Part shown: piece after piece, positions 3,093-38,699 of the stretch
How positions within the stretch are numbered: position 1 is the stretch's first letter
How the letters are laid out: every line of letters begins with the position of its first letter
Source of the DNA: Lactobacillus panisapium
Lineage (GTDB): Bacteria > Bacillota > Bacilli > Lactobacillales > Lactobacillaceae
NCBI RefSeq assembly: GCF_019469265.1
Contig: NZ_CP048268.1
Location: forward strand, 182,001-246,000
DNA length: 64,000 bases
Reading direction: 5' to 3'
Notes under the pieces: generated by a model
The model's input: only the letters and a program-made list of their open reading frames with translations
Told to the model about the DNA's origin: nothing
Databases searched by the model: none
Position numbers and translations under genes: made by a program

Positions 3093-3185
3093 TTAAAATT
3101 CAGTGCTTTTCCCTTCGCTGGCATTATCCATAGCAGGTTCAGTGGGTATATTCTCAGCCAAGATGGCACCCCAATATTTCAGGTC
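3093..3185 (-). promoter_or_regulatory. TPP (thiamine pyrophosphate) riboswitch, THI element
   Basis: Read on the minus strand, the hallmark segments occur in order: GGGGTGCC (3165-3172), GGCTGAGA, ACCC, TGAACCTG, GGATAATGCCAGCG, AGGGA. These are the conserved THI-box sequences. It precedes the terminator and the ECF ATPase gene, so the transporter is thiamine-repressed. Confidence 0.93.
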
Positions 3186-20869: not shown

Positions 20870-20904
20870 AATGTATTAAAGTTTGATAATAATAATTGTT
20901 TTGT

Positions 20905-20946
20905 AGTACATGATTTAGATGTTTTATCTAGATCATGTATTTTTTG
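20905..20946 (+). terminator. Terminator after rarA
   Basis: TACATGATTTAGAT and ATCTAGATCATGTA form a long stem followed by six T residues. Confidence 0.8.
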
Positions 20947-21129
20947 TTAAAAATAATTTACAGCTATGAAAATGAGTAAATGTTATTGTATGAGGTGATT
21001 GAACAACAAAGCTGCATCGGATAGCTTATGATATTTTGTTTTTTAGTATTCACACTATTTAGCTAATTGATTTTTTTGCTATCTTACCTAAAGCATCTTA
21101 ATATCAAGCTTGATTAGCATATTTAAGCA

Positions 21130-21945
21130 CTAAATCCAATTTGCAAGACTTTTTAATACTTTTTGTACTTGTGGGTTATTAATTTCTTTTAGAAAATCGT
21201 GATCTAAATAATAAAGTGGATAAAAAACGTTATATTGGGAAAGTTGTTTTAATGACTTACTGTAGCTAAAGGGTACCTCTTTATCTGTTGTACTTGCAGC
21301 GGAAAAAATAGGAGGGAAATTTTTTAATTCGTCTATGGTAATTGAATATTTGCTTACTTCATTTTCGTTAACGTCATAAGCTTTTAACAAATCACCTTGT
21401 TCAGCAAGATATAAATATAAAAGATAGCGAGATAAAGCAGAATCATCATGAATAAATTTTTTTGTATCTATTGATTGTATAAGCTCTTTTGAAATAGTCG
21501 TAGTCGATAATTTTTTTGCTCGATTAGCGTCTTTCAAGTCATAGTAACCATAGAAATTGATAATTTTGGTAGGCTTTTTTATTTGGCTTAATTTGAGAAT
21601 CTGATTGGCCAACCAAAACATAATAAAACCTCCAGCAGAGCGGCCACATAATATGTAATTAAAATTATGTGGTTCGATTACTTTTTTATATAGCTCTTTA
21701 AATGACTGGAAAGTTGTTTCTAAAATTTTACTTAAAGAAGAGTTTGGAGCTAGTGGATAATCTAGTGCAATAACTTCTATCTGTTTTTTTAGGAAAATAT
21801 TAGTTAAAGCAGAGGGTAAGTCATTACGTGTGCCATATATTAATCCGCCACCATGAAAGTAAATTAAGATAGTTGATGTTGGGGTGCTAGGGTACCATAA
21901 AGTACATTGCATTGAATTGGATAATTTTTGCATATTATGTTTCAT
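21130..21945 (-). CDS. Alpha/beta hydrolase, HSL/BD-FAE-like, in the carbamoyl-catabolism locus
   Basis: 271 aa. IYFHGGGLIYG is the HGGG oxyanion motif of the hormone-sensitive-lipase group and CGRSAGGF holds the nucleophile serine. Near the C-terminus SAASTTDKEVPF and YYLDHDFLKE supply plausible Asp and His. No signal peptide, so cytoplasmic. It overlaps the PucR gene by 11 nt and must be translated with it. Being co-expressed with the regulator of the FdrA operon, it may hydrolyse an ester or amide precursor of the pathway substrate; this is inference. Confidence 0.8.
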   Translation of the reverse strand: MKHNMQKLSNSMQCTLWYPSTPTSTILIYFHGGGLIYGTRNDLPSALTNIFLKKQIEVIALDYPLAPNSSLSKILETTFQSFKELYKKVIEPHNFNYILCGRSAGGFIMFWLANQILKLSQIKKPTKIINFYGYYDLKDANRAKKLSTTTISKELIQSIDTKKFIHDDSALSRYLLYLYLAEQGDLLKAYDVNENEVSKYSITIDELKNFPPIFSAASTTDKEVPFSYSKSLKQLSQYNVFYPLYYLDHDFLKEINNPQVQKVLKSLANWI

Positions 21946-23515
21946 TATTTTTCTCCATACTAAGTAAATAAGTTGAGATTTGATAATTGATTAGTTCAGT
22001 TTGGTTTTCAAGATCAAGATCTAATAAACCTTGAATCTTTTTAATCCTGTAGCGGACGGTTTTTTCGTGTACAAATAATAGTTCAGCAGCTTTTTTGTAA
22101 TTTTTATTTGTGTCAAAAAATATTTTTAGCGTTTTAAATAAATCATAATTATCTTTTTTCAAATCTATTAAATTTTGAGGGATGAATTTATTTAAAGTGC
22201 TAGGGTCTTTGATTGACAAGAAATATCTAAATATACCTAGTCTTTCAATTGAGAAAACATAATTAATAAAAATTTTTGCGTTAAAACTCAAGGCCTGCAA
22301 GCATTCATCTAAAATGGTTTGCAAGTTATTTTTTGTCTTAATAAAGCTAATTACAATTGAAAGACTTGAACGCTTTTGAAAATACTTAGACAACTTCTTT
22401 TTTATTAGTGCAGAATCTAACTGATCAGAGTGACTTTCAATATTAAAAAGAATGATCATATAGTCGTGGTGTTCTGAGTAAATGCTGTAGCGCTTAAGTC
22501 CTTGAAGTATTGCTCGAATATTATAAAGATCCATTTTACTCAAATTAGTAGTAAAAAAAGCACAAGCTTGATAATACTTGTAATGATTTAAATTTACTTC
22601 ATCTAGCAGTGTATCAAGCTCTCTTTCATCCAAAAGTGGGTATTGCAAAATCGCATCTGCAATATTATTTAAGTGGGCGTACTCTTTTTGCTTTAAAGCA
22701 TATTCCGTTTGTAATTTATTCTGAATAATATCAATGAAATTTTCGAAAATCATTGTCTCTGATTCACTTAATTTTTGAGTTTTATGAATTACTAAGAGTG
22801 AATTACGTTGATTAACATTATTCGTTGAAAACTCAATTCTTGTGGCGTTATATATTTGATTTGTAGCCAAAGATTCAAGAGTGTACAAAAAATATTTGTT
22901 TTTCACAAATTCAGAATCTTCTTCTGTATAGGGACTCCTTTCCTTAATTACCATTTTTTCAGGCATATCTTTGCTTTTATAAGAGGTTGAGTTTGAAGCT
23001 AAATATAACGAGCAAGGATAGTGAGTTATATTATTAAATTCGGCTACTAAAACTTGGTAAGAAGCTAGACTATCAGCTAAAGGTATTAATCTTTGTCTTG
23101 TTTTATAGTAGTTCTCCAAGACTAACGATTGATTATTTAAAATTGGCTGATAGATAGCTAATATTATTTGTTCATAATTTAACTCCGTACCCACTTTGAT
23201 TAACGGAATTTTATTTTGATAGCAAAGGTCTATAAACCAATTTGGTACTTGTTTAATCAGTCGATCAACTTTCACGATAATTCCACTAATCCCGATCCGT
23301 ACCATCTTTTCAAAAAAAGTATTCATCTCATCGGGCGATAATTGCTTTAATGCATAAAAAGAGGTCAAAATGATTTGATTTTTGCGTGACCATTTTTCAA
23401 TATCTAAAGCCTCTAAAACCATTACAGACTTAATTTCAGTATTTCTTTCCAATTTTGGTGTTAAAATTTTGCTTTCTTTGAAAATTGGTAATTCTAGCAG
23501 ATCGTATAGTTTCAT
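21935..23515 (-). CDS. PucR-family transcriptional regulator
   Basis: 526 aa. The N-terminal ~125 residues match the PucR sensor domain (LYDLLELPIFKESKIL, VKVDRLIKQVPNWFIDLC). The C-terminus has the PucR/CdaR-type helix-turn-helix (NKNYKKAAELLFVHEKTVRY, RIKKIQGLLDLDLEN). PucR of Bacillus controls purine and ureide catabolism, which fits an FdrA-type operon. It is transcribed divergently from that operon across a 141-nt region with a palindrome and a cre-like site, so it is the likely direct regulator. ATG follows AAGGAG. Confidence 0.88.
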   Translation of the reverse strand: MKLYDLLELPIFKESKILTPKLERNTEIKSVMVLEALDIEKWSRKNQIILTSFYALKQLSPDEMNTFFEKMVRIGISGIIVKVDRLIKQVPNWFIDLCYQNKIPLIKVGTELNYEQIILAIYQPILNNQSLVLENYYKTRQRLIPLADSLASYQVLVAEFNNITHYPCSLYLASNSTSYKSKDMPEKMVIKERSPYTEEDSEFVKNKYFLYTLESLATNQIYNATRIEFSTNNVNQRNSLLVIHKTQKLSESETMIFENFIDIIQNKLQTEYALKQKEYAHLNNIADAILQYPLLDERELDTLLDEVNLNHYKYYQACAFFTTNLSKMDLYNIRAILQGLKRYSIYSEHHDYMIILFNIESHSDQLDSALIKKKLSKYFQKRSSLSIVISFIKTKNNLQTILDECLQALSFNAKIFINYVFSIERLGIFRYFLSIKDPSTLNKFIPQNLIDLKKDNYDLFKTLKIFFDTNKNYKKAAELLFVHEKTVRYRIKKIQGLLDLDLENQTELINYQISTYLLSMEKNNET

Positions 23516-23547
23516 ATTAAATCTCCTTAAATTATTTTCCTTTGTCC

Positions 23548-23570
23548 ATTTGGCTAAAAATCTTCCAAAT
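23548..23570. promoter_or_regulatory. Inverted repeat, candidate operator
   Basis: ATTTGG (23548-23553) and CCAAAT (23565-23570) are separated by 11 nt in the pucR-fdrA intergenic region. It could be a binding site for the PucR protein or be chance; short arms. Confidence 0.3.
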
Positions 23571-23588
23571 AGATTTACTTTTTATCCA

Positions 23589-23617
23589 TTGTAAGCGCTT
23601 CTATACAATCATACAAT
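23589..23617 (+). promoter_or_regulatory. Promoter of the fdrA operon with cre-like site over the -35 box
   Basis: TTGTAA (23589-23594), 17 nt, TACAAT (23612-23617) makes a plausible sigma-A promoter. Positions 23589-23603 (TTGTAAGCGCTTCTA) match the CcpA cre consensus WTGNAANCGNWNNCW with one mismatch, so the operon is probably repressed by CcpA when good sugars are present. Confidence 0.55.
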
Positions 23618-23627
23618 TTAAATTGTA
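23612..23627. promoter_or_regulatory. Perfect 16-bp palindrome over the -10 box, candidate PucR operator
   Basis: TACAATTTAAATTGTA is an exact palindrome beginning at the -10 hexamer of the fdrA-operon promoter and ending 29 nt before the start codon. A half-site TACAAT also occurs at 23604-23609. A repressor or ligand-responsive regulator bound here would block transcription. Confidence 0.5.
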
Positions 23628-23656
23628 AAAAAATTAACAAATTGGAGGTATGAAAA

Positions 23657-26600
23657 ATGCTTAAGACAGTAATCTTAAAGGATAACTATCAGGATTCAAT
23701 TAATCTTATGCTATTGACGAATAAGATTAACGAGCTGGCCGATGTAGAAATGAGCCAGATCATGATGGGTACTGAAGCGAATAAGGATATTTTGGCTAAT
23801 ACTGGCTTGTTAACTGAGAAGGCTAAAACTGCATCACCCAATGATTTAATGGTAGTTGTTAGAAGTGATGACAATGAGGTTATGGATAAAGTTTTACCAA
23901 CTGTTCAGTCATTCCTGGAAGATCTTTCTACTAAAAAGACTGAATCTGATGAAGACACAGTGGCGGTTGATAATTGGGATGATGCATTAAAGGCATTGCC
24001 AGATGCGAATTTGGCTTTATTTAGCATACCTGGAGAATACGGAGCTCCAGAAATGGAAAAGGCTTTGAAACATAATTTAAATGTGTTCTCATTTACGGAT
24101 AATGTTTCAATCGAAGATGAAGTTAAATTAAAGAAATTAGCCCATAAAAAAGGCTTACTAATGATGGGACCTGATTGTGGCACGGGTGTTATTTCAAGTA
24201 TTCCATTGGCGTTTACTAATGTTGTCTCACCCGGAAATATTGGCATTGTTGGTGCTTCAGGAACTGGAATTCAAGAAGTAACGACCATTATTGACAGATT
24301 GGGCAATGGTGTTATTCATGCCATAGGTACCGGTGGACGTGATTTAAGTAATGAGGTAGATGCAATTACGGTTAAAGATGCAATTGCGGCTTTAGAAGAT
24401 CATGAGCCAACGGATGTGATTTGTGTCATTTCTAAACCACCTGCAAAAAAGGTTAGAGATGAAGTTATGCAGATTCTTGAAAGCTGTGATAAGCCCGTTG
24501 TTGCTGACTTTTTAGGTGAGCGACCTACTCATTATGAAGGTAATGTTTATTTAGCTCATACATTAGAAGAAACGGCTAAGATTGCTGTTGATTTGGCAGC
24601 TGGTAAAGAAGTTAAAAAGAATTATTTTGAAAAAGTTGAACTACCAGCTAATGTTAAAACACTAGCAGACGATAAAACTATTAAGGGACTCTATTCAGGT
24701 GGAACTTTGGCTAATGAAGCCGGCATGCTGATTTCTGAAGCACTTGACTTAGGGCACTTAACAAAGGAAAAAGGATATATTCTAAAAACTGAGGGATATG
24801 ATGTCATTGATTTAGGAGATGATGTTTATACCCAAGGAAAGCCACACCCAATGATTGATCCAGAGGTTCGGATTAATAAAATGCGCGAATATTGTCAGGA
24901 TCCACATACTGGGGTCATTTTACTTGATGTAGTGTTGGGATATGGCGCAAGCGATGATATGGCTGGTGCTTTAATTCCAGTAATTGATGAAGAAATTGAT
25001 AAGGCTGAAAAAGCTGGCAGACCATTATACTTTGTTGCCACTGTTGTAGGAACGAATAAAGATCCGCAAAATTATGATGAAACAGTTGAGCGCTTAAAAG
25101 AACATGGCGTTTTAGTTGAGAAGAGCAATGCAAAGGCTGTTCAACTAGCATTAAAGTTAAAAGGAATTCAAATTTCTGAGCCAGATAAAACAAATATTCC
25201 ATATACAGGGAAGAAAATTGCATTACCAACAGTTAGCAACGAAGTAAAGGAATTATTAGCTACAAAACCACGAGTAATTAATATTGGTATTAATAGTTTT
25301 ACCGATTCGATTATTAAATATGGTGGAAAAACTGTTCAATTCAATTGGAAGCCACGCGCTAATGGTAATAAGCGGATGATTAAGTTATTAGATGCACTAG
25401 AAAAGTATGATGACAAGATTGACGCAGACAATGAAAAGGTAATTCAAAGATTTAAGGATGCGAAACCGTTTCTGACTGATGTAGTTCCTGCTAAGACTGT
25501 TATTCCTGAACTGAATACTGAGCACAAGACATTGTTGCATGCAGGACCGCCAATTACATATACAGAAATGACAGGACCTATGCAGGGCTCATGTGTTGGT
25601 GCAGCAATATTTGAGGGCTGGGCAAAAGATGAGATTGAGGCACGAAAGTTATTGGAAAATGGAGAAATAAGTTTAATGCCTTGTCATTCTGTTCATGCCG
25701 TCGGACCAATGGGTGGAATTACATCAGGAAATATGCCTGTTGTCATTGTTGAAAACAGATTAGACAATACGAGAGCTTATTGCACCTTGAATGAAGGTAT
25801 AGGTAAGGTTTTGAGATTTGGAGCATACTCTCAAGAAGTTATTGATCGGCTAGTTTGGATGAGGGATGTACTCGGTCCAGTCTTATCAAAAGCTTTAAAG
25901 AAAACTGAGGATGGCCTTAACTTAAATGTCTTAATAGCACGTTCTATTACAATGGGAGATGAGTTCCATCAAAGAAATATTGCCGCTTCAGCAAACTTCT
26001 TATGTTCAATAGCGCCACTAATTAGTGAACTAGATATTAGTGAGAAAGACAGATACGATGTAATTAAATTTTTAGCAGATACTGATCAATTCTTCCTCAA
26101 CATTATGATGGCTACTGGCAAGTCAATTGCTGATGCTGCAAGAAAGTATCAAAAAGGTACTATCGTAACTGCAATGGCTAGAAATGGACGTGATTTTGGT
26201 ATCCGTATTGCTGGTATGGGAGACCAATGGTTTAAAGCACCTGTAAATACTCCTAAGGGCCTTTATTTTGCAGGCTTTTCAGAGGATGACGCTAATCCCG
26301 ACATTGGCGATTCTTCAATTACAGAAACTGTTGGTGTAGGCGGTATGGCCATGGTAGCAGCTCCTGGTGTAACAAGATTTGTTGGTGCAGGCGGTTTTGA
26401 AGATGCATTAAGAATTTCCAATTCCATGGAGAAGATTAATACTACTCACAATCCAAATTGGTCGATTCCAACTTGGGACTTTAAAGGCACGAACTTGGGC
26501 ATTGATATTAGAAAAGTAGTAGAAACTGGCATTGAGCCAATTATTAACACAGGTATTGCACATAAAAAACCAGGTGTTGGTCAGATTGGTGCTGGTACTG

Positions 26601-26674
26601 TTAAAGCGCCAATAGCCTGCTTTGAAAAGGCTTTGGAAGCCTATGCTAAGACCTTAGGTATCGAAGTTGATTAA
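23657..26674 (+). CDS. FdrA-DUF1116 fusion, oxamate carbamoyltransferase-type (AllF-AllG fused)
   Basis: 1005 aa. Residues 1 to about 505 are FdrA (AllF): the succinyl-CoA-synthetase-like fold is marked by MGPDCGTGV (170-178) and IGIVGASGTGIQEV (195-208). Residues about 530-1005 are DUF1116 (YlbE/AllG): INIGINSFTDSIIKYGG, HAGPPITYTEMTGPMQG, MPCHSVHAVGPMGG, EDDANPDIGDSSITETVGVG. In E. coli these are separate proteins (about 555 and 420 aa) which with AllH form oxamate carbamoyltransferase, making carbamoyl phosphate from oxalurate. Here no stop or frameshift separates them, so it is a true fusion. ATG at 23657 lies eight bases after GGAGG; an earlier ATG at 23650 is out of frame and stops at once. 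First gene of a five-gene operon. Confidence 0.88.
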   Translation: MLKTVILKDNYQDSINLMLLTNKINELADVEMSQIMMGTEANKDILANTGLLTEKAKTASPNDLMVVVRSDDNEVMDKVLPTVQSFLEDLSTKKTESDEDTVAVDNWDDALKALPDANLALFSIPGEYGAPEMEKALKHNLNVFSFTDNVSIEDEVKLKKLAHKKGLLMMGPDCGTGVISSIPLAFTNVVSPGNIGIVGASGTGIQEVTTIIDRLGNGVIHAIGTGGRDLSNEVDAITVKDAIAALEDHEPTDVICVISKPPAKKVRDEVMQILESCDKPVVADFLGERPTHYEGNVYLAHTLEETAKIAVDLAAGKEVKKNYFEKVELPANVKTLADDKTIKGLYSGGTLANEAGMLISEALDLGHLTKEKGYILKTEGYDVIDLGDDVYTQGKPHPMIDPEVRINKMREYCQDPHTGVILLDVVLGYGASDDMAGALIPVIDEEIDKAEKAGRPLYFVATVVGTNKDPQNYDETVERLKEHGVLVEKSNAKAVQLALKLKGIQISEPDKTNIPYTGKKIALPTVSNEVKELLATKPRVINIGINSFTDSIIKYGGKTVQFNWKPRANGNKRMIKLLDALEKYDDKIDADNEKVIQRFKDAKPFLTDVVPAKTVIPELNTEHKTLLHAGPPITYTEMTGPMQGSCVGAAIFEGWAKDEIEARKLLENGEISLMPCHSVHAVGPMGGITSGNMPVVIVENRLDNTRAYCTLNEGIGKVLRFGAYSQEVIDRLVWMRDVLGPVLSKALKKTEDGLNLNVLIARSITMGDEFHQRNIAASANFLCSIAPLISELDISEKDRYDVIKFLADTDQFFLNIMMATGKSIADAARKYQKGTIVTAMARNGRDFGIRIAGMGDQWFKAPVNTPKGLYFAGFSEDDANPDIGDSSITETVGVGGMAMVAAPGVTRFVGAGGFEDALRISNSMEKINTTHNPNWSIPTWDFKGTNLGIDIRKVVETGIEPIINTGIAHKKPGVGQIGAGTVKAPIACFEKALEAYAKTLGIEVD

Positions 26675-27530
26675 TTCTCATGTTGTTCAAATTAGTAGTT
26701 ACATTAATCCCATTACTAAATTTGGCAAAATAGGCAAAATACATTCAATATTCACCCACTCTATTAATATTCAAATTGGTTATCACTTAGTAAATATTGG
26801 CTGTTTTGAGAATTACTTGTCCTGCTTTGGGATGAACATTCCTGAAAACATTTTGCAATCAATTATTCATAGTGTGGGAAAAAACGAAATAGTTAAATTT
26901 TCAAATGATTATCTCTACTTCTATACCAAAGATGGGATTAAAAAGATTAGTTTAGTAGATTCAAATATAGTTGACTTAAAAATTAATGCGTTTAGTCAGT
27001 TTCCAAAAGCTGAATTAAAAAAAGTCCTGAAAATCCTGGAAAGAAAAAAATTAGATCAAAGAATAGGGCTACCCAACAATAGTTTGTTCAAAACTTTTAC
27101 TGAGGAAATGACTACATTTAAGAATCTTAATATTGAGCAAGTTGTTACTTGGTTACTTGGCAGAGGAAAGGGATTAACGCCAAGCGGTGATGATATCCTT
27201 TGTGGTTACATTTTCATACTATTATTAGTTGGCAAAGCAACTAATTATTTATCAAACTTTATTGAACAAATAATTAGTAATCTGAGTCTTACTACTGATG
27301 TGAGTAAAGCTTATCTAATTTGTGCAACACAAGGATACGTTAATTCCAAAGTTTATCAATTATATGAATCCTTGAAAAATCATGATTTAAAAAATATAGA
27401 CCGTGAGCTAAATTCCATTCTTAATATTGGCCATACTTCGGGTAATGATTTGAGTTATGGGATTGAACTGGGTATTTTAGCTAGTTTAAATACTCCTGAG
27501 TCTATGAAAGGAGCGAATAATGAAAAATGA
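26667..27530 (+). CDS. DUF2877 protein (YlbF/AllH-like)
   Basis: 287 aa. The C-terminal part has the DUF2877 signature LLGRGKGLTPSGDDILCGY and GHTSGNDLSYGIELG. E. coli AllH is the third protein needed for oxamate carbamoyltransferase. The frame starts with TTG overlapping the end of the fusion gene by eight bases, which implies translational coupling; an ATG is not available nearby. It overlaps the next gene by 11 nt. Together with the fusion it would give a complete AllFGH set. Confidence 0.85.
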   Translation: MINSHVVQISSYINPITKFGKIGKIHSIFTHSINIQIGYHLVNIGCFENYLSCFGMNIPENILQSIIHSVGKNEIVKFSNDYLYFYTKDGIKKISLVDSNIVDLKINAFSQFPKAELKKVLKILERKKLDQRIGLPNNSLFKTFTEEMTTFKNLNIEQVVTWLLGRGKGLTPSGDDILCGYIFILLLVGKATNYLSNFIEQIISNLSLTTDVSKAYLICATQGYVNSKVYQLYESLKNHDLKNIDRELNSILNIGHTSGNDLSYGIELGILASLNTPESMKGANNEK

Positions 27531-28764
27531 CGAAGAAGCCGTAAAGGTTTCTAAAAACTATTGGATAAGAGTCGTCATTATATTCTTCTTAGGTTGGATA
27601 TTAATGTATGGAACGCGTACCATTTTTAATCCAATTATGGGAATCGTTGGCAAACAGTTTGGTTTAAATAATACTCAGCTGGGATTAGCCAATAGCATAT
27701 TCTTTTTGACCTATGCTGTCTTCCAAGTACCATTTGGGGCGCTAGGTGACAAGTATGGAAGAAAATTGGTGATTACTATTGGGTTTCTTGTTTTAGCTGT
27801 GATGAGTTGGTTATCAGGAATTGCAGCTAGTTTTACTTTATTTCTGATAATTAGAGCTCTTGCTGGTGTTGGTCAAGCTTCCTATTATGGTCCACAATAT
27901 GCGCTGTCTTCAGAAGCTATTCCAGAAGATAAGTTAACTCTTGGTACTGCAATCATCAACTCAGGTATGGCTTTTGGTACTTCTGGTGGATACCTGCTTT
28001 CAAGCTATTTAGTATTACAAAATCATCAAAGTTGGAAAGTTCCTTTCTTTGTAGTAGCTGTCCCAACAGCTATCTTGGCAGTTTTATTTTATACATGTTT
28101 AAAGGAGAAAGTTTATAGACCTAAAAAGGCTGAAAAAGTATCAGAGAATCAGCCAAAAGAAAAGGTTTCTCTTAAAAAGATTTTCACCAATAAAAATTTG
28201 GTTGCGGCATTTGTTCTTTGCTTTTGTAGTATTTATGCCAATTTTGTAATTATTACTTGGCTACCATCGTTTTTAATTTCCAATAGGGGATTCGAAGGTG
28301 GCAGTGTAGGATTTATTTCTTCGTTAGTGCCCTGGGCTTCCATACCGGGTGCTCTAGTATTTGCTAAATTAGCCGATAAAACTGGTAGTACAAAAAAATG
28401 GATCTACCTTCTAGTACCGTTATCAATTATTTCAGTATTTGCGATTGCTTTTGTTTCCAATAAAGTTTTGCTAATAGCAGTACTTATTTTATATGGGCTA
28501 ACCGGTAAGCTGGCAATTGATCCTATTATTGTAGCCTATGTTACAAAGAAAGCTCCATCAGGTTCTTTATCAACAACATTAAGTGCTTATAACTTTATTG
28601 GTATGTCAGGTTCCATTTTGGCACCTTATATCACTGGCTGGCTAGCAGATGTGACTGGACAAATGGAAATCGGTTTTTATTTAGGCTGTGGTCTATTAAT
28701 AATTGGCTTGATTGTATTTGCTGTACTGGCAACTGACTCAAAGAAGGGAGAAACAGCTGTATAA
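27520..28764 (+). CDS. MFS transporter, anion:cation symporter-like
   Basis: 414 aa with 12 hydrophobic segments and a central cytoplasmic loop (about 195-220, KEKVYRPKKAEKVSENQPK). The loop-2 motif FGALGDKYGRKLV is the MFS signature D-x-x-G-R-K. General likeness is to organic-anion or hexuronate-type porters (ACS family). AAAGGAG precedes the ATG. In this operon it most likely imports the carbamoyl compound or exports the residual acid (oxamate); inferred from position. Confidence 0.82.
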   Translation: MKNDEEAVKVSKNYWIRVVIIFFLGWILMYGTRTIFNPIMGIVGKQFGLNNTQLGLANSIFFLTYAVFQVPFGALGDKYGRKLVITIGFLVLAVMSWLSGIAASFTLFLIIRALAGVGQASYYGPQYALSSEAIPEDKLTLGTAIINSGMAFGTSGGYLLSSYLVLQNHQSWKVPFFVVAVPTAILAVLFYTCLKEKVYRPKKAEKVSENQPKEKVSLKKIFTNKNLVAAFVLCFCSIYANFVIITWLPSFLISNRGFEGGSVGFISSLVPWASIPGALVFAKLADKTGSTKKWIYLLVPLSIISVFAIAFVSNKVLLIAVLILYGLTGKLAIDPIIVAYVTKKAPSGSLSTTLSAYNFIGMSGSILAPYITGWLADVTGQMEIGFYLGCGLLIIGLIVFAVLATDSKKGETAV

Positions 28765-29699
28765 TGGCTACTAGTGTAATCGCCCTAGGTGGGAATGCAA
28801 TTCTAGAGAAAGATCCAACCGATATTGGGCAAAAAGAAACGGTTAATAGGGCAGCAAGATATATTGTTGAATATATAAAGGCTGGAAATAAAGTGGCAAT
28901 TTGTCACGGTAATGGTCCGCAAGTGGGTAATTTGTTGTTGCAACAGAATGCCGCTAATTCTAAGAAAAATCCTGCTTTTAGACTTGATACCTGTGGGGCA
29001 ATGACAGAGGGTAGCATTGGTTATTGGATTCAACAAGGGCTAGATAATGCTTCTAAAGATCTTGGTCAAAATATCAAATCTCTTACGGTTATTACCCAAT
29101 CTGAAGTTGATAAAAATGATCCATCTTTCAGGTCTCCAAGTAAGCCGATAGGCCCCTTTTATACCAAAAAAGAAGTAATTGAATTACAAAAAAATAGTAA
29201 TGATATGTTTATAGAAGATGCTGGTCGTGGATATAGAAAAGTAGTACCTTCTCCTAAACCAATAAAAATAGTCGAAAGAGATATTATTAAAGATACTGTA
29301 AATGCTGGTATTGTGCCGGTTGTAGCAGGTGGTGGAGGTATACCTGTTATTGTAGAAGGCAATCAAATAAAAGGTGTAGAAGCTGTTATTGATAAAGATT
29401 TTGGTTCTGAGAAAGTTGCAGAGGGGATTTCAGCTGATAATTTAATAATTTTAACAGCTGTAGATAGTGTTTATATCAATTTTGGTCAAGAAAATCAAAA
29501 AGCTTTGAATCATATAACGGTTGCTGAAGCCGAAGAATATATAAAACAAGGACAATTTGCGAAGGGAAGTATGTTACCCAAGATTCAAGCCGCAATTTTA
29601 TTTGTTATGGATCATCCAGATAGAAAGGCAATAATTACATCAATTTCTAATTTACCAAATATTTCTCAAAACGCTGGTACCTTAATAACTGATAAGTAA
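28764..29699 (+). CDS. Carbamate kinase
   Basis: 311 aa, full length for ArcC-type carbamate kinases. Motifs: IALGGNAILEKDPTDIGQ (phosphate/ATP), CHGNGPQVGNLLLQQ, VVAGGGGIPV, LTAVDSVYINFGQENQKAL, FAKGSMLPKIQAAI. Reaction: carbamoyl phosphate + ADP gives ATP + carbamate. The start overlaps the MFS stop (TAATG). Its place after the carbamoyltransferase genes matches E. coli allK (ybcF). No arginine deiminase gene is nearby, so it belongs to this pathway. Confidence 0.93.
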   Translation: MATSVIALGGNAILEKDPTDIGQKETVNRAARYIVEYIKAGNKVAICHGNGPQVGNLLLQQNAANSKKNPAFRLDTCGAMTEGSIGYWIQQGLDNASKDLGQNIKSLTVITQSEVDKNDPSFRSPSKPIGPFYTKKEVIELQKNSNDMFIEDAGRGYRKVVPSPKPIKIVERDIIKDTVNAGIVPVVAGGGGIPVIVEGNQIKGVEAVIDKDFGSEKVAEGISADNLIILTAVDSVYINFGQENQKALNHITVAEAEEYIKQGQFAKGSMLPKIQAAILFVMDHPDRKAIITSISNLPNISQNAGTLITDK

Positions 29700-29717
29700 A
29701 GAAAAGCAGGTGCTATC

Positions 29718-30938
29718 ATGATGAAAAAAGTCAAGATATCAATGGTTAATCAGATTTTGATAGCAGTTATTCTAGGCATAATTTTTGCTTTTGTGTTGCC
29801 GAATGTTTCGGTACATTTAAAAATAATCGGTGATATTTTTTTGAAACTAATGCAAATGTCAATTCCGCTTTTAGTGCTGGGACAAATTATTCAAGCAGTT
29901 GGAAGTATTAAACCTGATGAATTAAGTAACTTGGGAATAAAAACCATTATTACTTTTTTAAGCTCCTCATTGTTAGCAGCTGCTTTTGGAGTAATAATTG
30001 GGGTGCTTTTTAAACCCGGAATTGGAATCCAGTTAACTAAAGCTACTGGTAAAGTAATTAAATTTAAATCTATTTCATTAAATAATACTGTTTTGAATTT
30101 CTTCACTAGCAACATTTTTGCATCTTTAACTAAAGGAACGATTATTCAGATTATTGTTTTTGCAATATTTTTTGGAATTGGATTGAGCAGATTTATGGTA
30201 AAAAGGCCACAATCAAAATTGCTTAGTTTAATAATTGATTTCAATGATGTCGTTATTCAGTTGGTAACTTGTGTGATGTTCTTTGCTCCAATCGGTATTT
30301 TTGCTTTAATTGCTTCCACAATTAGTAATTTGGGTATAAAAATTATTATTCCATTGATAAAGTATTTGCTTTCATATGGATTTGCAACGTTTGCTTATCT
30401 ATTGATTTGGATAGCTGTTATCTCCTTATTCCTTAAAGTAAATCCAATTAAGCTAATTACTAATATGTCTGAAATGTCCATTATGGCATTAGCCACCACT
30501 TCTTCGGCAATTACCTTACCAATTGAGATGAAGGAAGCCAAAAATAGTTTAGGGCTAAAGGATCGAATTACTAACTTAGTGTTGCCATTGGGGATGTCAC
30601 TCAATTCAAATGGGTCTGCAATGCATATGGCTATAACTGTGATTACAATTGCTCAATTGTATAATATTAACTTTTCTTTTGATAAAATTCTTTATCTCAT
30701 CATAATGTCGACATTTGTGTCTTTGGCTAATGCTGTTGTACCTGGAGCTGGATTAGTTTCTTTAGCGATAATAGTTCCTCAGATGGGTTTGCCGATTGAG
30801 AGCATTGCCATTTTTGCAGGTGTTGAATGGTTTGTTGGAATGCTCAGAACAATTCTTAACGTTAATTCTGATGTCTATTCTGCGCTAATTGTTGGAAAAT
30901 CAGTTAATGCGATTGATTATGAAGTATTCAATAAGTAA
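29718..30938 (+). CDS. Dicarboxylate/amino acid:cation symporter (DAACS family)
   Basis: 406 aa with about eight membrane segments plus re-entrant loops. TTSSAITLPIEMKEA is the serine-rich HP1 region and PLGMSLNSNGSAMHMA is the TM7 sodium/substrate motif of GltP/DctA/SstT proteins. Last gene of the operon, 18 nt after carbamate kinase, with a terminator behind it. Likely substrates are small anions or amino acids; in context a second route for substrate or product, such as a ureido acid. Two adjacent ATG codons (29718, 29721) are possible starts. Confidence 0.85.
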   Translation: MMKKVKISMVNQILIAVILGIIFAFVLPNVSVHLKIIGDIFLKLMQMSIPLLVLGQIIQAVGSIKPDELSNLGIKTIITFLSSSLLAAAFGVIIGVLFKPGIGIQLTKATGKVIKFKSISLNNTVLNFFTSNIFASLTKGTIIQIIVFAIFFGIGLSRFMVKRPQSKLLSLIIDFNDVVIQLVTCVMFFAPIGIFALIASTISNLGIKIIIPLIKYLLSYGFATFAYLLIWIAVISLFLKVNPIKLITNMSEMSIMALATTSSAITLPIEMKEAKNSLGLKDRITNLVLPLGMSLNSNGSAMHMAITVITIAQLYNINFSFDKILYLIIMSTFVSLANAVVPGAGLVSLAIIVPQMGLPIESIAIFAGVEWFVGMLRTILNVNSDVYSALIVGKSVNAIDYEVFNK

Positions 30939-31034
30939 ATTTACGAGAAAGTAAGTTCTTAGTAAGTATATAAAAATTGTTGTTTATTTTATTCTTACTA
31001 CCATTCAAATTAGTGTTAATTTTAAAAAAATAAT

Positions 31035-31071
31035 AAAACCGCCTTGAGACAGTGTTCAAGGCGGTTTTTTA
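31035..31071. terminator. Bidirectional terminator ending the fdrA operon
   Basis: AAACCGCCTTGA and TCAAGGCGGTTT form a perfect 12-bp stem, with T and A runs on the respective sides. Confidence 0.9.
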
Positions 31072-31392
31072 CTTGTCGATTTTCAGTGGCTCGATAGGTG
31101 TTTCACCAGGGAGTTTATTGATGACTAACAGCTTTTTCTTAATGGCAGGATAGTATAAATATGATTTTTGATTGCTTAAGACTATCACGCCGTCAGTTTT
31201 ATTACTTGGTTTCAAAACGCAGGCGTTATCATTTGGATTTTCATAAGTACCACTATCAAATTCTCTGCCATTTTTGAAAAGCCGATATTTGCCGTTGGTT
31301 CCTAAAGATATCGTAATATGAGGATTGACCGAACTTGTATGAATGCCATGATTGGCAAAGCCACCATAAGCTGTAGGTGGCTTTTTCTCCAA
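31069..31392 (-). pseudogene. 5'-truncated paralogue of the 122-aa membrane protein
   Basis: The readable frame (107 aa from a TTG at 31392) aligns along its whole length with residues 29-122 of the protein at 9899-10267: PP...GGFANHG / PPSIIGAFSNN, YRLFKNGREFDSGTY / YRLYFQGKEFDHGIY, SNQKSYLYYPAIKKKLLVI. The N-terminal membrane anchor and an ATG with ribosome site are missing, and upstream the frame is closed, so it is probably dead. A cytoplasmic product from TTG cannot be excluded. It lies at the right border of the catabolic island. Confidence 0.6.
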
Positions 31393-31582
31393 ATTTTTTA
31401 GCTGTAATATTTTTTCGTCTATATTTAATTAGCTTTGGTCTGTGCAAAAATATCTCACTTTAAGGAAATAAGTAACAAAGTTAGAAGCATTTAATATTTA
31501 TCTCTCATTAGTGTAATCTTTCGTCATTGTTGTCTTCTAAAAATAAGTTATAGTGAATTTTTCTTAAACAAATTATATATAA

Positions 31583-31617
31583 TAAAAAAATGTTTCGAAA
31601 GGAAACATTTTTTTATT
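31583..31617. terminator. Terminator after the lysine ABC transporter operon
   Basis: AAAAAATGTTTC and GAAACATTTTTT form a 12-bp stem-loop with T run on either strand. Confidence 0.85.
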
Positions 31618-31621
31618 TAAG

Positions 31622-32371
31622 CTAATTATTCTGGAAGTTACTTAAGAACTTCGCTGTTTTTTCATTTTGCGGATGATTAAACAATTGGTCAGGATTGCCT
31701 TGTTCAGCAATTACACCATCACTGATAAAGAAAATCTGATCGGAAATATCACGGGCAAAAGCCATTTCATGGGTAACGATAATCATCGTTAAACCAGTAG
31801 TGGCCAAGTTTTGCATAACGCTCAAAACTTCGCCGACCATTTCTGGGTCAAGTGCACTAGTTGGTTCGTCAAATAGCAAAATCTCTGGGTCCATGCTAAT
31901 CGCCCGTGCAATTGCAACCCGCTGCTGCTGACCGCCTGAGAGTTGGCTAGGGCGGGCATTAATGTACTGCTCCATGCCAACTTTTTTAAGGTTTGCGAGG
32001 GCAACTTGGCGAGCCTCTTCTTTTGAATGCTTCAAAACAAGTTCTTGGCCGACCATGCAGTTAGCCAGCACATTTTTATTTTCGAATAAATCGAATTGTT
32101 GAAAGACCATGCCGACCTTGGCCCGGTAAATATTCCGATTATAGTTTGGCTCTAAGACATTTTCACCGTGAAAAATAACTTCGCCAGCGGTTGGTTCTTC
32201 TAGTAAATTGATACACCGTAAAGTAGTCGATTTACCACCACCAGAAGGTCCAATAATCGTAGCAATTTCGCCTTTATTAATATCAAGAGAGATGTCACGC
32301 AGAACTTGATGTTCACCAAAAGCTTTTTGAATGTGCTTTAAGCTTAAAATAGTTTCATTTGTTTCAGTCAT
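31622..32371 (-). CDS. Amino acid ABC transporter ATP-binding protein (lysine-regulated)
   Basis: 249 aa polar-amino-acid ABC ATPase (GlnQ/HisP type): Walker A IGPSGGGKSTTLR, Q-loop FQQFDLF, signature LSGGQQQRVAIA, Walker B EILLFDEPTSALDPEMV, and H-loop IIVTHEMAFA. Start overlaps the stop of the fused permease by one base. The lysine riboswitch upstream of the operon points to lysine as the transported amino acid. Confidence 0.92.
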   Translation of the reverse strand: MTETNETILSLKHIQKAFGEHQVLRDISLDINKGEIATIIGPSGGGKSTTLRCINLLEEPTAGEVIFHGENVLEPNYNRNIYRAKVGMVFQQFDLFENKNVLANCMVGQELVLKHSKEEARQVALANLKKVGMEQYINARPSQLSGGQQQRVAIARAISMDPEILLFDEPTSALDPEMVGEVLSVMQNLATTGLTMIIVTHEMAFARDISDQIFFISDGVIAEQGNPDQLFNHPQNEKTAKFLSNFQNN

Positions 32372-34087: not shown

Positions 34088-34109
34088 ATAATTAATCATC
34101 TTTAGACAA

Positions 34110-34285
34110 ATCATATAGCGCTCCCTGGGAATTAACCAGGACAGTCTGCAAGATATTCTCTTTGCAGCCCAACAAAAACATCAAAACGAAAATCTTTTTG
34201 TTTCGGCGACAATTCTTACGTTATCTTTCTTTGTGTTCGTTCACTCAAGATAATTTTGTAATGGTCGCGACCTCTATTGCATTGG
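34110..34285 (-). promoter_or_regulatory. Lysine riboswitch (L box)
   Basis: On the minus strand the aptamer landmarks occur in order: ATAGAGGTCGCGACC at the 5' side, then AAGAAAGATAACG, GTCGCCGAAACAAAAAG, TTTTTGTTGGGCTGC, ATCTTGCAGACTGTCCTGG and CCAGGGAGCGCTAT. This is the B. subtilis lysC leader order (AGAGGTGCGA ... GTCGCCGAAGCAAAT ... ATTTGCTGG ... GGCTGTC ... GGAGGGCTA). It fills most of 33997-34367. Confidence 0.9.
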
Positions 34286-38296: not shown

Positions 38297-38345
38297 AAAA
38301 AGCCCTTTGTCCCGTAATAATAAAAATAAGGACGAAAGGCTTTTT
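38297..38345 (-). terminator. T-box-controlled terminator in the asnA leader
   Basis: On the minus strand AAAGCCTTTCGTCC pairs with GGGACAAAGGGCTTT, followed by T residues; it overlaps the 3' part of the antiterminator. Confidence 0.8.
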
Positions 38346-38560
38346 CCGCGGTACCACCTAGATTGCCCAAACTTTGGGCCACTCATGAAACACAATCATG
38401 CTTCACCAGTTTGATAACGTACTGGAGACGGCACCACCTACTTTAATTACTAGTTCAGTGTGCTGCTAGAAGTGTTTTTCGATAATCCAGGGTCTGCCGA
38501 TTTTCCACTATCACCGGTTCACTTTAAGAGATAGATTATTTACTCGTCTTCATCACTGCA
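38346..38560 (-). promoter_or_regulatory. T-box leader of asnA
   Basis: On the minus strand the T-box core AGGTGGTACCGCGG (38346-38359) is followed by a terminator and preceded by about 190 nt with stem I elements. A GAAC sequence in AAAGTGAACCGG near the 5' end may hold an AAC (Asn) specifier, which fits asnA. Uncharged tRNA-Asn would turn the gene on. It occupies most of 38267-38699. Confidence 0.9.
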
Positions 38561-38699
38561 TTTAAGTTAATAGTAATTTAACAACTATTTTAATTAAAAT
38601 GCAAGTAAAAATTAATATAAAATAATAAAAAACGGTTTGGCAATCTAAAAAGCCTTGTTCTGTTATAATGGATAGGAATATTTATTGAGAGGAAATTTT

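Follow-up and report, generated by a model that had tools for sequence, protein, structure and literature searches.

The window, as we call the whole stretch of DNA analysed here, covers 64,000 nucleotides of Lactobacillus panisapium (bases 182001-246000 of a one-contig genome of 2,188,116 bases, completeness 100), and at 21130-31068 it carries a gene cassette with a probable role in the use of oxalurate. Two genes lie on the minus strand, namely abh (21130..21945), encoding a hormone-sensitive-lipase-like alpha/beta hydrolase with a GRSAG motif (Abhydrolase_3, 52.6 bits against a cut-off of 25), and the gene of a PucR-family transcriptional regulator (21935..23515; PucR N-terminal domain 75.2 bits, cut-off 34; HTH_30 58.3 bits). 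Divergent from them, the plus strand encodes a fused AllF-AllG protein (FdrA-DUF1116) of 1005 amino acids (23657..26674; AllG 312 bits, cut-off 27; FdrA PRK06091 674 bits, cut-off 433), then AllH (DUF2877), annotated as the third subunit of oxamic transcarbamylase (OXTCase) and starting with TTG (26667..27530; AllH 100 bits, cut-off 25), a transporter of the major facilitator superfamily (MFS; 27520..28764; MFS_1 200 bits, cut-off 33), a catabolic carbamate kinase (28764..29699; TIGR00746 (arcC) 377.2 bits, cut-off 358.25) and a DAACS-family symporter (29718..30938; SDF 336 bits, cut-off 28).

All genes named by the earlier note on this DNA were found at or near the coordinates it gave, each scoring above curated cut-offs. 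It had described one overlapping operon divergent from PucR and abh, and the genes, their order and their overlaps agree with this (AllFG/AllH 8 nt, AllH/MFS 11 nt, MFS/carbamate kinase 1 nt, PucR/abh 11 nt). The DAACS gene departs from it, as the 18-nt gap between carbamate kinase and DAACS is the only non-overlapping junction of the plus-strand operon. Because blocks of these genes recur across many genera with little or no change in order, the arrangement is more than chance.

According to excerpts of PMC11326118, AllF, AllG and AllH of Escherichia coli together form a proven oxamic transcarbamylase (oxalurate + Pi <-> oxamate + carbamoyl phosphate), an enzyme without similarity to the ATCase/OTCase family. 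Homologues of all three proteins are present in the cassette, and the enzyme class is very likely the same. The G part of the fusion shares 60.6% identity with E. coli AllG versus 43.6% with YahG, and the PDB entries 3dmy and 3clq are sequence matches of the two fusion halves. Invariant columns were taken as those identical in 75 other fused rows plus AllF or AllG; the set consisted of 79 fused rows of at least 970 amino acids, minus the window, L002, L003 and L123, and the rows had been recruited with the window protein. None of 94 such columns differs in F (94/94 kept) and one of 120 differs in G (119/120 kept, the exception being F to L at residue 673), these columns being chosen by conservation alone. 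A loss of conserved FdrA/DUF1116 residues, which the earlier note would have counted against this type of enzyme, was thus not seen. The window AllH retains all 21 columns that at least 90% of rows share.

The earlier note had also joined an enzyme of the oxamate carbamoyltransferase type to carbamate kinase in an ATP-yielding route, and homology bears this out. The cassette enzyme is one of two carbamate kinases in the genome. The second one lies within an operon at L171:4703-10276 (1788702-1794275 of the same genome), which was read by eye as an arginine deiminase operon (arcA, arcB, an amino-acid carrier and arcC, with ornithine transcarbamylase among the products); a PucR-type helix-turn-helix protein adjoins it. 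Arginine and agmatine deiminase pathways likewise combine a catabolic transcarbamylase, carbamate kinase and a dedicated carrier, and gain ATP from carbamoyl phosphate. Unlike OXTCase, the transcarbamylase of the arginine deiminase pathway belongs to the ATCase/OTCase family, and in this genome that pathway seems to be encoded by a separate operon that includes a carbamate kinase gene. Oxalurate use would run parallel to it as a second carbamoyl-phosphate fermentation.

Upstream allantoin genes were missing from the window in the earlier note, and the same held when the search was extended to the whole genome, as that note had advised. Neither the window genome nor three further Lactobacillus genomes matched single queries for the AllD family (PF02615), AllC, AllE and YahJ. 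Of 14 genomes used as controls, 4 matched PF02615; the control match for AllE came from G266 and that for YahJ from G459. The AllC search was run without a separate control, and its query recovers AllC of Lactobacillaceae at 57-59% identity elsewhere. The sole AllB-like match in the genome (31% identity) was rejected as an allantoinase, being flanked by genes read by eye as pyrB and carA, and by these neighbours it looks like a dihydroorotase. With the AllB query, the only full-length match among the other three Lactobacillus genomes was one at 28% in G025, all others being short. Hence the set of allantoinase, allantoate amidohydrolase, ureidoglycine aminohydrolase and ureidoglycolate dehydrogenase that makes up the anaerobic allantoin pathway was not recovered from the genome by these queries.

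The E. coli allFGH-allK genes share the three protein families and carbamate kinase with the cassette, and their reaction is the one proven in that organism (PMC11326118, in part). The two systems differ in several respects. In E. coli, AllF and AllG are separate, allantoin genes stand alongside, and abh, MFS and DAACS genes are lacking from the operon. That operon is controlled by ArcA and AllS, as given in parts of PMC12535856, whereas the window has PucR instead. E. coli also has a paralogous set, yahEFG-yahI-yahJ, with FdrA, DUF1116, DUF2877 and carbamate-kinase-like proteins; YahG is farther from the G part of the window than AllG is, and the YahJ query is unmatched in the window genome.

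A closer counterpart was found in Enterococcus faecalis. Strain IDRL-9065 has the order abh-PucR / AllFG-AllH-MFS-arcC-DAACS-allD-c12-YahJ; the record concerned, 747 kb long, is deposited as a plasmid. Its AllFG, MFS, DAACS and carbamate kinase are 72.4, 69.2, 63.3 and 59.2% identical to those of the window, and its abh, PucR and AllH 41.3, 39.8 and 38.3%; c12 and YahJ match our reference copies at 60.7 and 78.4%. E. faecalis adds allD, c12 and a YahJ-type amidohydrolase downstream, so the window holds the core without those three. Oxamic transcarbamylase was reportedly first measured in streptococci in the 1960s. By its title, a study of Tigier and Grisolia (1965) is said to concern induction of the enzyme by parabanic acid in a streptococcus, and Vander Wauven (1986) is reportedly cited in reviews for an oxalurate pathway with a third carbamate kinase in E. 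faecalis ATCC 11700. We propose that the cassette encodes this classic E. faecalis pathway. That oxalurate is usable as an energy source via oxamate transcarbamylase is stated in the available portions of one review and one research paper. Gram-positive gene names for the pathway were not found in open-licence papers among the matches listed.

The distribution of the cassette was then assessed from a scan of species genomes with the fused window protein, in which the best 80 of 271 relatives were used and the fused query favours fused copies. These 80 came from Enterococcus, Streptococcus, Tetragenococcus, Clostridium, bacilli, Lachnospiraceae, Collinsella and others. AllG occurred in 15 of 397 sampled Lactobacillaceae genomes and in 7 of 40 genera. 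Within Lactobacillus, 4 of 75 genomes matched, two of these matches being doubtful contigs of metagenome-assembled genomes (MAGs). The suggestion of the earlier note that the system is undescribed in lactobacilli stands insofar as open-licence papers yielded no description, and AllG is present in the 15 Lactobacillaceae genomes. The island is rare in Lactobacillus, and the cassette is not unique, as similar sets are known here from Enterococcus, Clostridium and further Firmicutes. The near-identical enzymes of G037 and G062 were rejected as independent copies, as their contigs L002 and L003 are 99.5-99.7% identical to the window. Both contigs end at or near the cassette borders, and RarA in G037 is only 89% identical. 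These features suggest that L002 and L003 are misbinned contigs.

We compared 91 non-redundant loci, made up of 78 from the species scan (from the best 80 of 271 relatives), 12 further ones and the window; L002, L003, L123, L116 and L120 were dropped as copies. Genes were counted by tblastn, since naive calls of open reading frames had taken antisense frames in some loci. AllFG was fused in 79 loci, AllH was present in 83 and carbamate kinase in 81. The comparison of fusion neighbourhoods proposed earlier thus shows the fusion to be ordinary, at 79 of 91 loci found with this query. By neighbourhood, 36 loci contain a full or partial allantoin cluster (type A), 17 a YahJ-type amidohydrolase (type B, 11 of them with c12) and 11 AllD alone (type D). 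The remaining 27 are minimal like the window (type C); 25 of these have an MFS gene at 50% identity or more and 24 a DAACS gene, and in a few, one gene is missing or lies elsewhere. In a hand-chosen set of 42 cassette genomes (an allantoin or AllD gene adjoins the cassette in 9 and not in the other 33; some are drafts or MAGs, and E. mundtii accounts for two), 24 had no AllD anywhere, namely 20 minimal ones including W8174 and four of the YahJ type.

The c12 gene (L032:6863-8230, L172:18618-19973) encodes a membrane protein of 450 amino acids with about 11 hydrophobic segments, for which no Pfam or NCBIfam match was found. A YahJ-type amidohydrolase is present in 11 of the 12 c12 loci, and c12 is present in no minimal locus. 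It may represent a so far unrecognised family of carriers, with parabanate as a conceivable substrate.

The two carriers of the window were considered next. The best named model for the MFS protein is TIGR00893, at 137 bits, below its cut-off of 395. MFS relatives of at least 50% identity occur in 40 of the 91 loci and in none of the 20 loci with an NCS1 (allantoin-type) permease. As the two are never found together, this MFS type is suggested to import the substrate where allantoin is not the source, and it would be an oxalurate importer or an oxalurate/oxamate exchanger. For the DAACS symporter, the GltP and DctA models lie far below cut-off; it may be a second acid carrier that takes oxalurate in or lets oxamate out. 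A carrier of the LctP type is found in 14 of the 91 loci, chiefly in Clostridia, and gives a hint of export of the lactate-like oxamate. One locus of Clostridium sp. MCC353 (L056) contains several FdrA/DUF1116 copies together with an LctP-type carrier.

The hydrolase abh is a near-constant partner, being present in 78 of the 91 loci (type A 30/36, B 16/17, C 25/27 and D 7/11). Its occurrence in every neighbourhood type would fit a step common to all of them, such as oxamate removal. The E. coli cluster lacks abh, and oxamate is called a dead end there in the passages seen of PMC11326118. The window protein matches PDB 2qru at 209 bits, and the abh of the E. faecalis cassette is near-identical to 2QRU, with few of 270 residues differing; that structure is labelled just 'uncharacterized protein'. 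In the alignment (77 of 83 rows, filtered by length and one copy), the HGGG oxyanion motif, R102, S103 and D221 are present in 77 of 77 rows and H249 in 76. By pattern, we take the serine, aspartate and histidine to be the catalytic triad. The nucleophile motif GRSAG, as compared with GESAG, GTSAG and GCSAG of the named subfamilies, has an arginine before the nucleophile, which sets abh apart from those subfamilies and would suit a small acid. Oxamate inhibits lactate dehydrogenase. More speculatively, the substrate of abh may be one of the small acids of this pathway, with oxamate as the simplest candidate.

PucR probably regulates the cassette. It was adjacent and divergent in 50 of the 88 loci used here, and an inverted repeat lies between PucR and AllFG. 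The motif had been spotted by eye in the same sequences prior to counting, and its exact half-site GGATAAA/TTTATCC was counted in 42 of the 50 loci with an adjacent divergent PucR versus 3 of the 38 others. With a whole-repeat score of at least 11/14, the numbers were 45 of 50 versus 9 of 38. In the window, the candidate operator TTGTCCA-N2-TGGCTAA (23542..23557, plus strand; consensus TTATCCA-N2/3-TGGATAA) is degenerate at 12/14, and the W8174 copy is perfect. A cre-like site, a candidate for catabolite repression by CcpA, follows at 23590..23603 on the plus strand, matching 13 of 14 positions of the consensus, and overlaps the -35 element of a promoter-like pair at 23589-23617. Scores of at least 13/14 occur in 27 of 92 upstream regions, two of which are near-copies of the window, and 24 of the 27 lie at nearly the same place; these statistics rest on mononucleotide shuffles of related sequences without correction, and one of the 92 regions was masked. 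The conserved repeat is a candidate PucR operator and the cre-like site a candidate CcpA target, both as predictions. A terminator-like hairpin of 14 pairs ends the operon on the plus strand (31035..31068; also found on the minus strand), and a second one is located at 20905-20941. As classes, terminator-like sites (8 vs 5.7, sd 2.5) and promoter-like sites (42 vs 49.7, sd 7.1) were not above shuffles.

To place the enzyme, a tree was built of 92 AllF parts, by a quick search with SH-aLRT (approximate likelihood ratio test) support only; L004, L119, L045, L067, L116 and L120 were left out of the counts, the E. coli branches are very long and the root is unsure. A single branch (SH-aLRT 100) unites W8174 with the window, L002 and L003. 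This branch stands beside Enterococcus, Streptococcus and Tetragenococcus (93), inside a group of 29 rows (99) and apart from other Lactobacillaceae copies. The neighbourhoods within the 29-row group are minimal in 15 cases, AllD in 7, YahJ in 6 and allantoin in 1. The AllD-only neighbourhood requires 7 changes on the enzyme tree, which means that AllD is repeatedly gained or lost next to an enzyme that stays much the same.

The contents of the stretch from rarA to an ABC transporter, where the cassette lies (window 20870-31622; L154-L163), vary within this Lactobacillus group. Nine relatives that have both flanks carry 0.8-6.9 kb of different DNA between these flanking genes; by eye, relatives carry at the rarA site another hydrolase, a 2-hydroxyacid dehydrogenase with a carrier and a sensor kinase, or ABC transporter genes. 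The island has a GC content of 33.8%, and its flanks 37.4 and 40.1%. Taken together, the tree position, the lower GC and the other DNA at the site in nine relatives suggest a horizontal gain at a variable site from an Enterococcaceae/Streptococcaceae-like donor. Loss of the island in the other relatives could also account for the pattern. No direct repeats marking an insertion were found, and the two-copy repeats there look like chance. W8174 matches the window at 81.4% identity in the island and at 76-80% in the flanks, and this similarity indicates that the two share the island by descent or by transfer near their split. Elsewhere in the window, a lysine riboswitch (34108-34284), a T-box leader (38325-38565) and a TPP riboswitch (3093-3183) lie on the minus strand.

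In PLSDB, 194 of 72,556 plasmid records carry FdrA/DUF1116 relatives. Of these, 140 are predicted conjugative and 96 are from Escherichia, so this enzyme class travels on plasmids.

Lactobacillus sp. W8174 (L004) is the nearest named isolate, at 92% (among the best 80 of 271 relatives); a literature search for this strain found no paper. W8171 and W8172 are strains of L. melliventris and L. apis used as honeybee gut bacteria, as far as the excerpt of PMC8729767 goes. From these strain numbers, a bee-gut setting is likely.

On this evidence we favour, with a probability of roughly 0.74, a stand-alone oxalurate fermentation cassette, a horizontally acquired and trimmed variant of the known pathway. 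The MFS and DAACS carriers would import ready-made oxalurate and let oxamate out. By homology to the proven enzyme, fused AllF-AllG with AllH would convert oxalurate and phosphate to oxamate and carbamoyl phosphate, from which carbamate kinase, acting as its family does, would form ATP, CO2 and ammonia with ADP. The conserved sites point to induction of the operon by PucR on substrate and to repression by CcpA at cre when sugar is plentiful.

Several points weigh against this reading. The F part is no closer to E. coli AllF (38.7% over 586 positions, 389 bits) than to YahF (39.2% over 508 positions, 323 bits), and AllH can be aligned with E. coli AllH only over residues 164-269, at 37.4% identity. 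The E. coli enzyme has a high Km for oxamate, 36.9 mM in the part of PMC11326118 concerned. A His aligned with the phospho-His of SucD is present in 72 of 81 FdrA rows, the window and E. coli AllF not among them, and in view of it a ligase-like step is conceivable for the FdrA family. Activity, transport and induction are predictions from the genes for every copy, which carrier imports is a guess, and a supply of oxalurate in the host gut is an assumption.

An improbable alternative is a transcarbamylase for another ureido acid, such as ureidosuccinate, ureidopropionate or hydantoate, imported by DAACS. DAACS carriers handle dicarboxylates and amino acids, no upstream gene in the genome fixes the substrate, and the F part is as distant from AllF as from YahF, whose paralogous Yah set has no named substrate. 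It is countered by the G part, which is clearly AllG-like, and by the 29-row group, in which minimal, AllD, YahJ and allantoin neighbourhoods are mixed and AllD makes oxalurate. Moreover E. faecalis, the species of the cited oxalurate pathway, carries the cassette. The earlier note had allowed for a different true substrate, which is now less supported, as near relatives adjoin AllD or a YahJ-type amidohydrolase and the E. faecalis cassette is closely similar; the substrate is probably oxalurate.

Quite improbable, too, is a feed of ureidoglycolate or parabanate that is converted to oxalurate, either by a 2-hydroxyacid dehydrogenase resembling lactate dehydrogenase that the queries missed or because parabanate hydrolyses spontaneously. 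The reported inducing role of parabanic acid in a streptococcus, known from a title, speaks for it; against it, the genome has neither a PF02615 nor a YahJ match, and c12 is present in 11 of 17 YahJ-type loci and in no minimal one.

A simple lack of the SucD catalytic His in FdrA was considered and rejected, since 72 of 81 rows carry the aligned His. At residue 293 (24533-24535) the window has a Tyr that directly follows a His; the corresponding residue is Arg in E. coli AllF and acidic in YahF. Because the proven E. coli AllF is without this His, it is not needed for the transcarbamylase. That FdrA-DUF1116 is an acyl-CoA synthetase or ligase, as its CoA_binding and Ligase_CoA domains, the database name 'acyl-CoA synthetase FdrA' and the aligned His might indicate, is barely credible, given that the loop preceding the His is 4-6 residues shorter in all 9 rows aligned with SucD, that window and proven AllF carry Tyr and Arg, that E. 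coli AllFGH is a transcarbamylase (PMC11326118, in part) and that carbamate kinase accompanies 81 of 91 loci.

What is new for the stand-alone oxalurate cassette is the gene assignment for the Gram-positive pathway, the near-constant GRSAG hydrolase partner, and the candidate PucR operator and cre sites. Insects void urate. A wider picture, which we offer tentatively and consider rather unlikely as a whole, would make the cassette an energy module for extracellular oxalurate, formed by urate oxidation via parabanate, in gut lactobacilli of a urate-voiding insect. The GRSAG hydrolase would then be a hitherto unrecognised oxamate or oxalurate amidase relieving inhibition of lactate dehydrogenase, and c12 and YahJ of E. 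faecalis would be the importer and hydrolase of parabanate.

The comparative map ties the old streptococcal and enterococcal physiology to one transferable cassette, often without allantoin genes. It supplies testable parts, namely a fused enzyme, two carriers, a regulator with its predicted operator and a hydrolase partner. If the assignment is true, lactobacilli would gain another carbamoyl-phosphate fermentation besides arginine deiminase.

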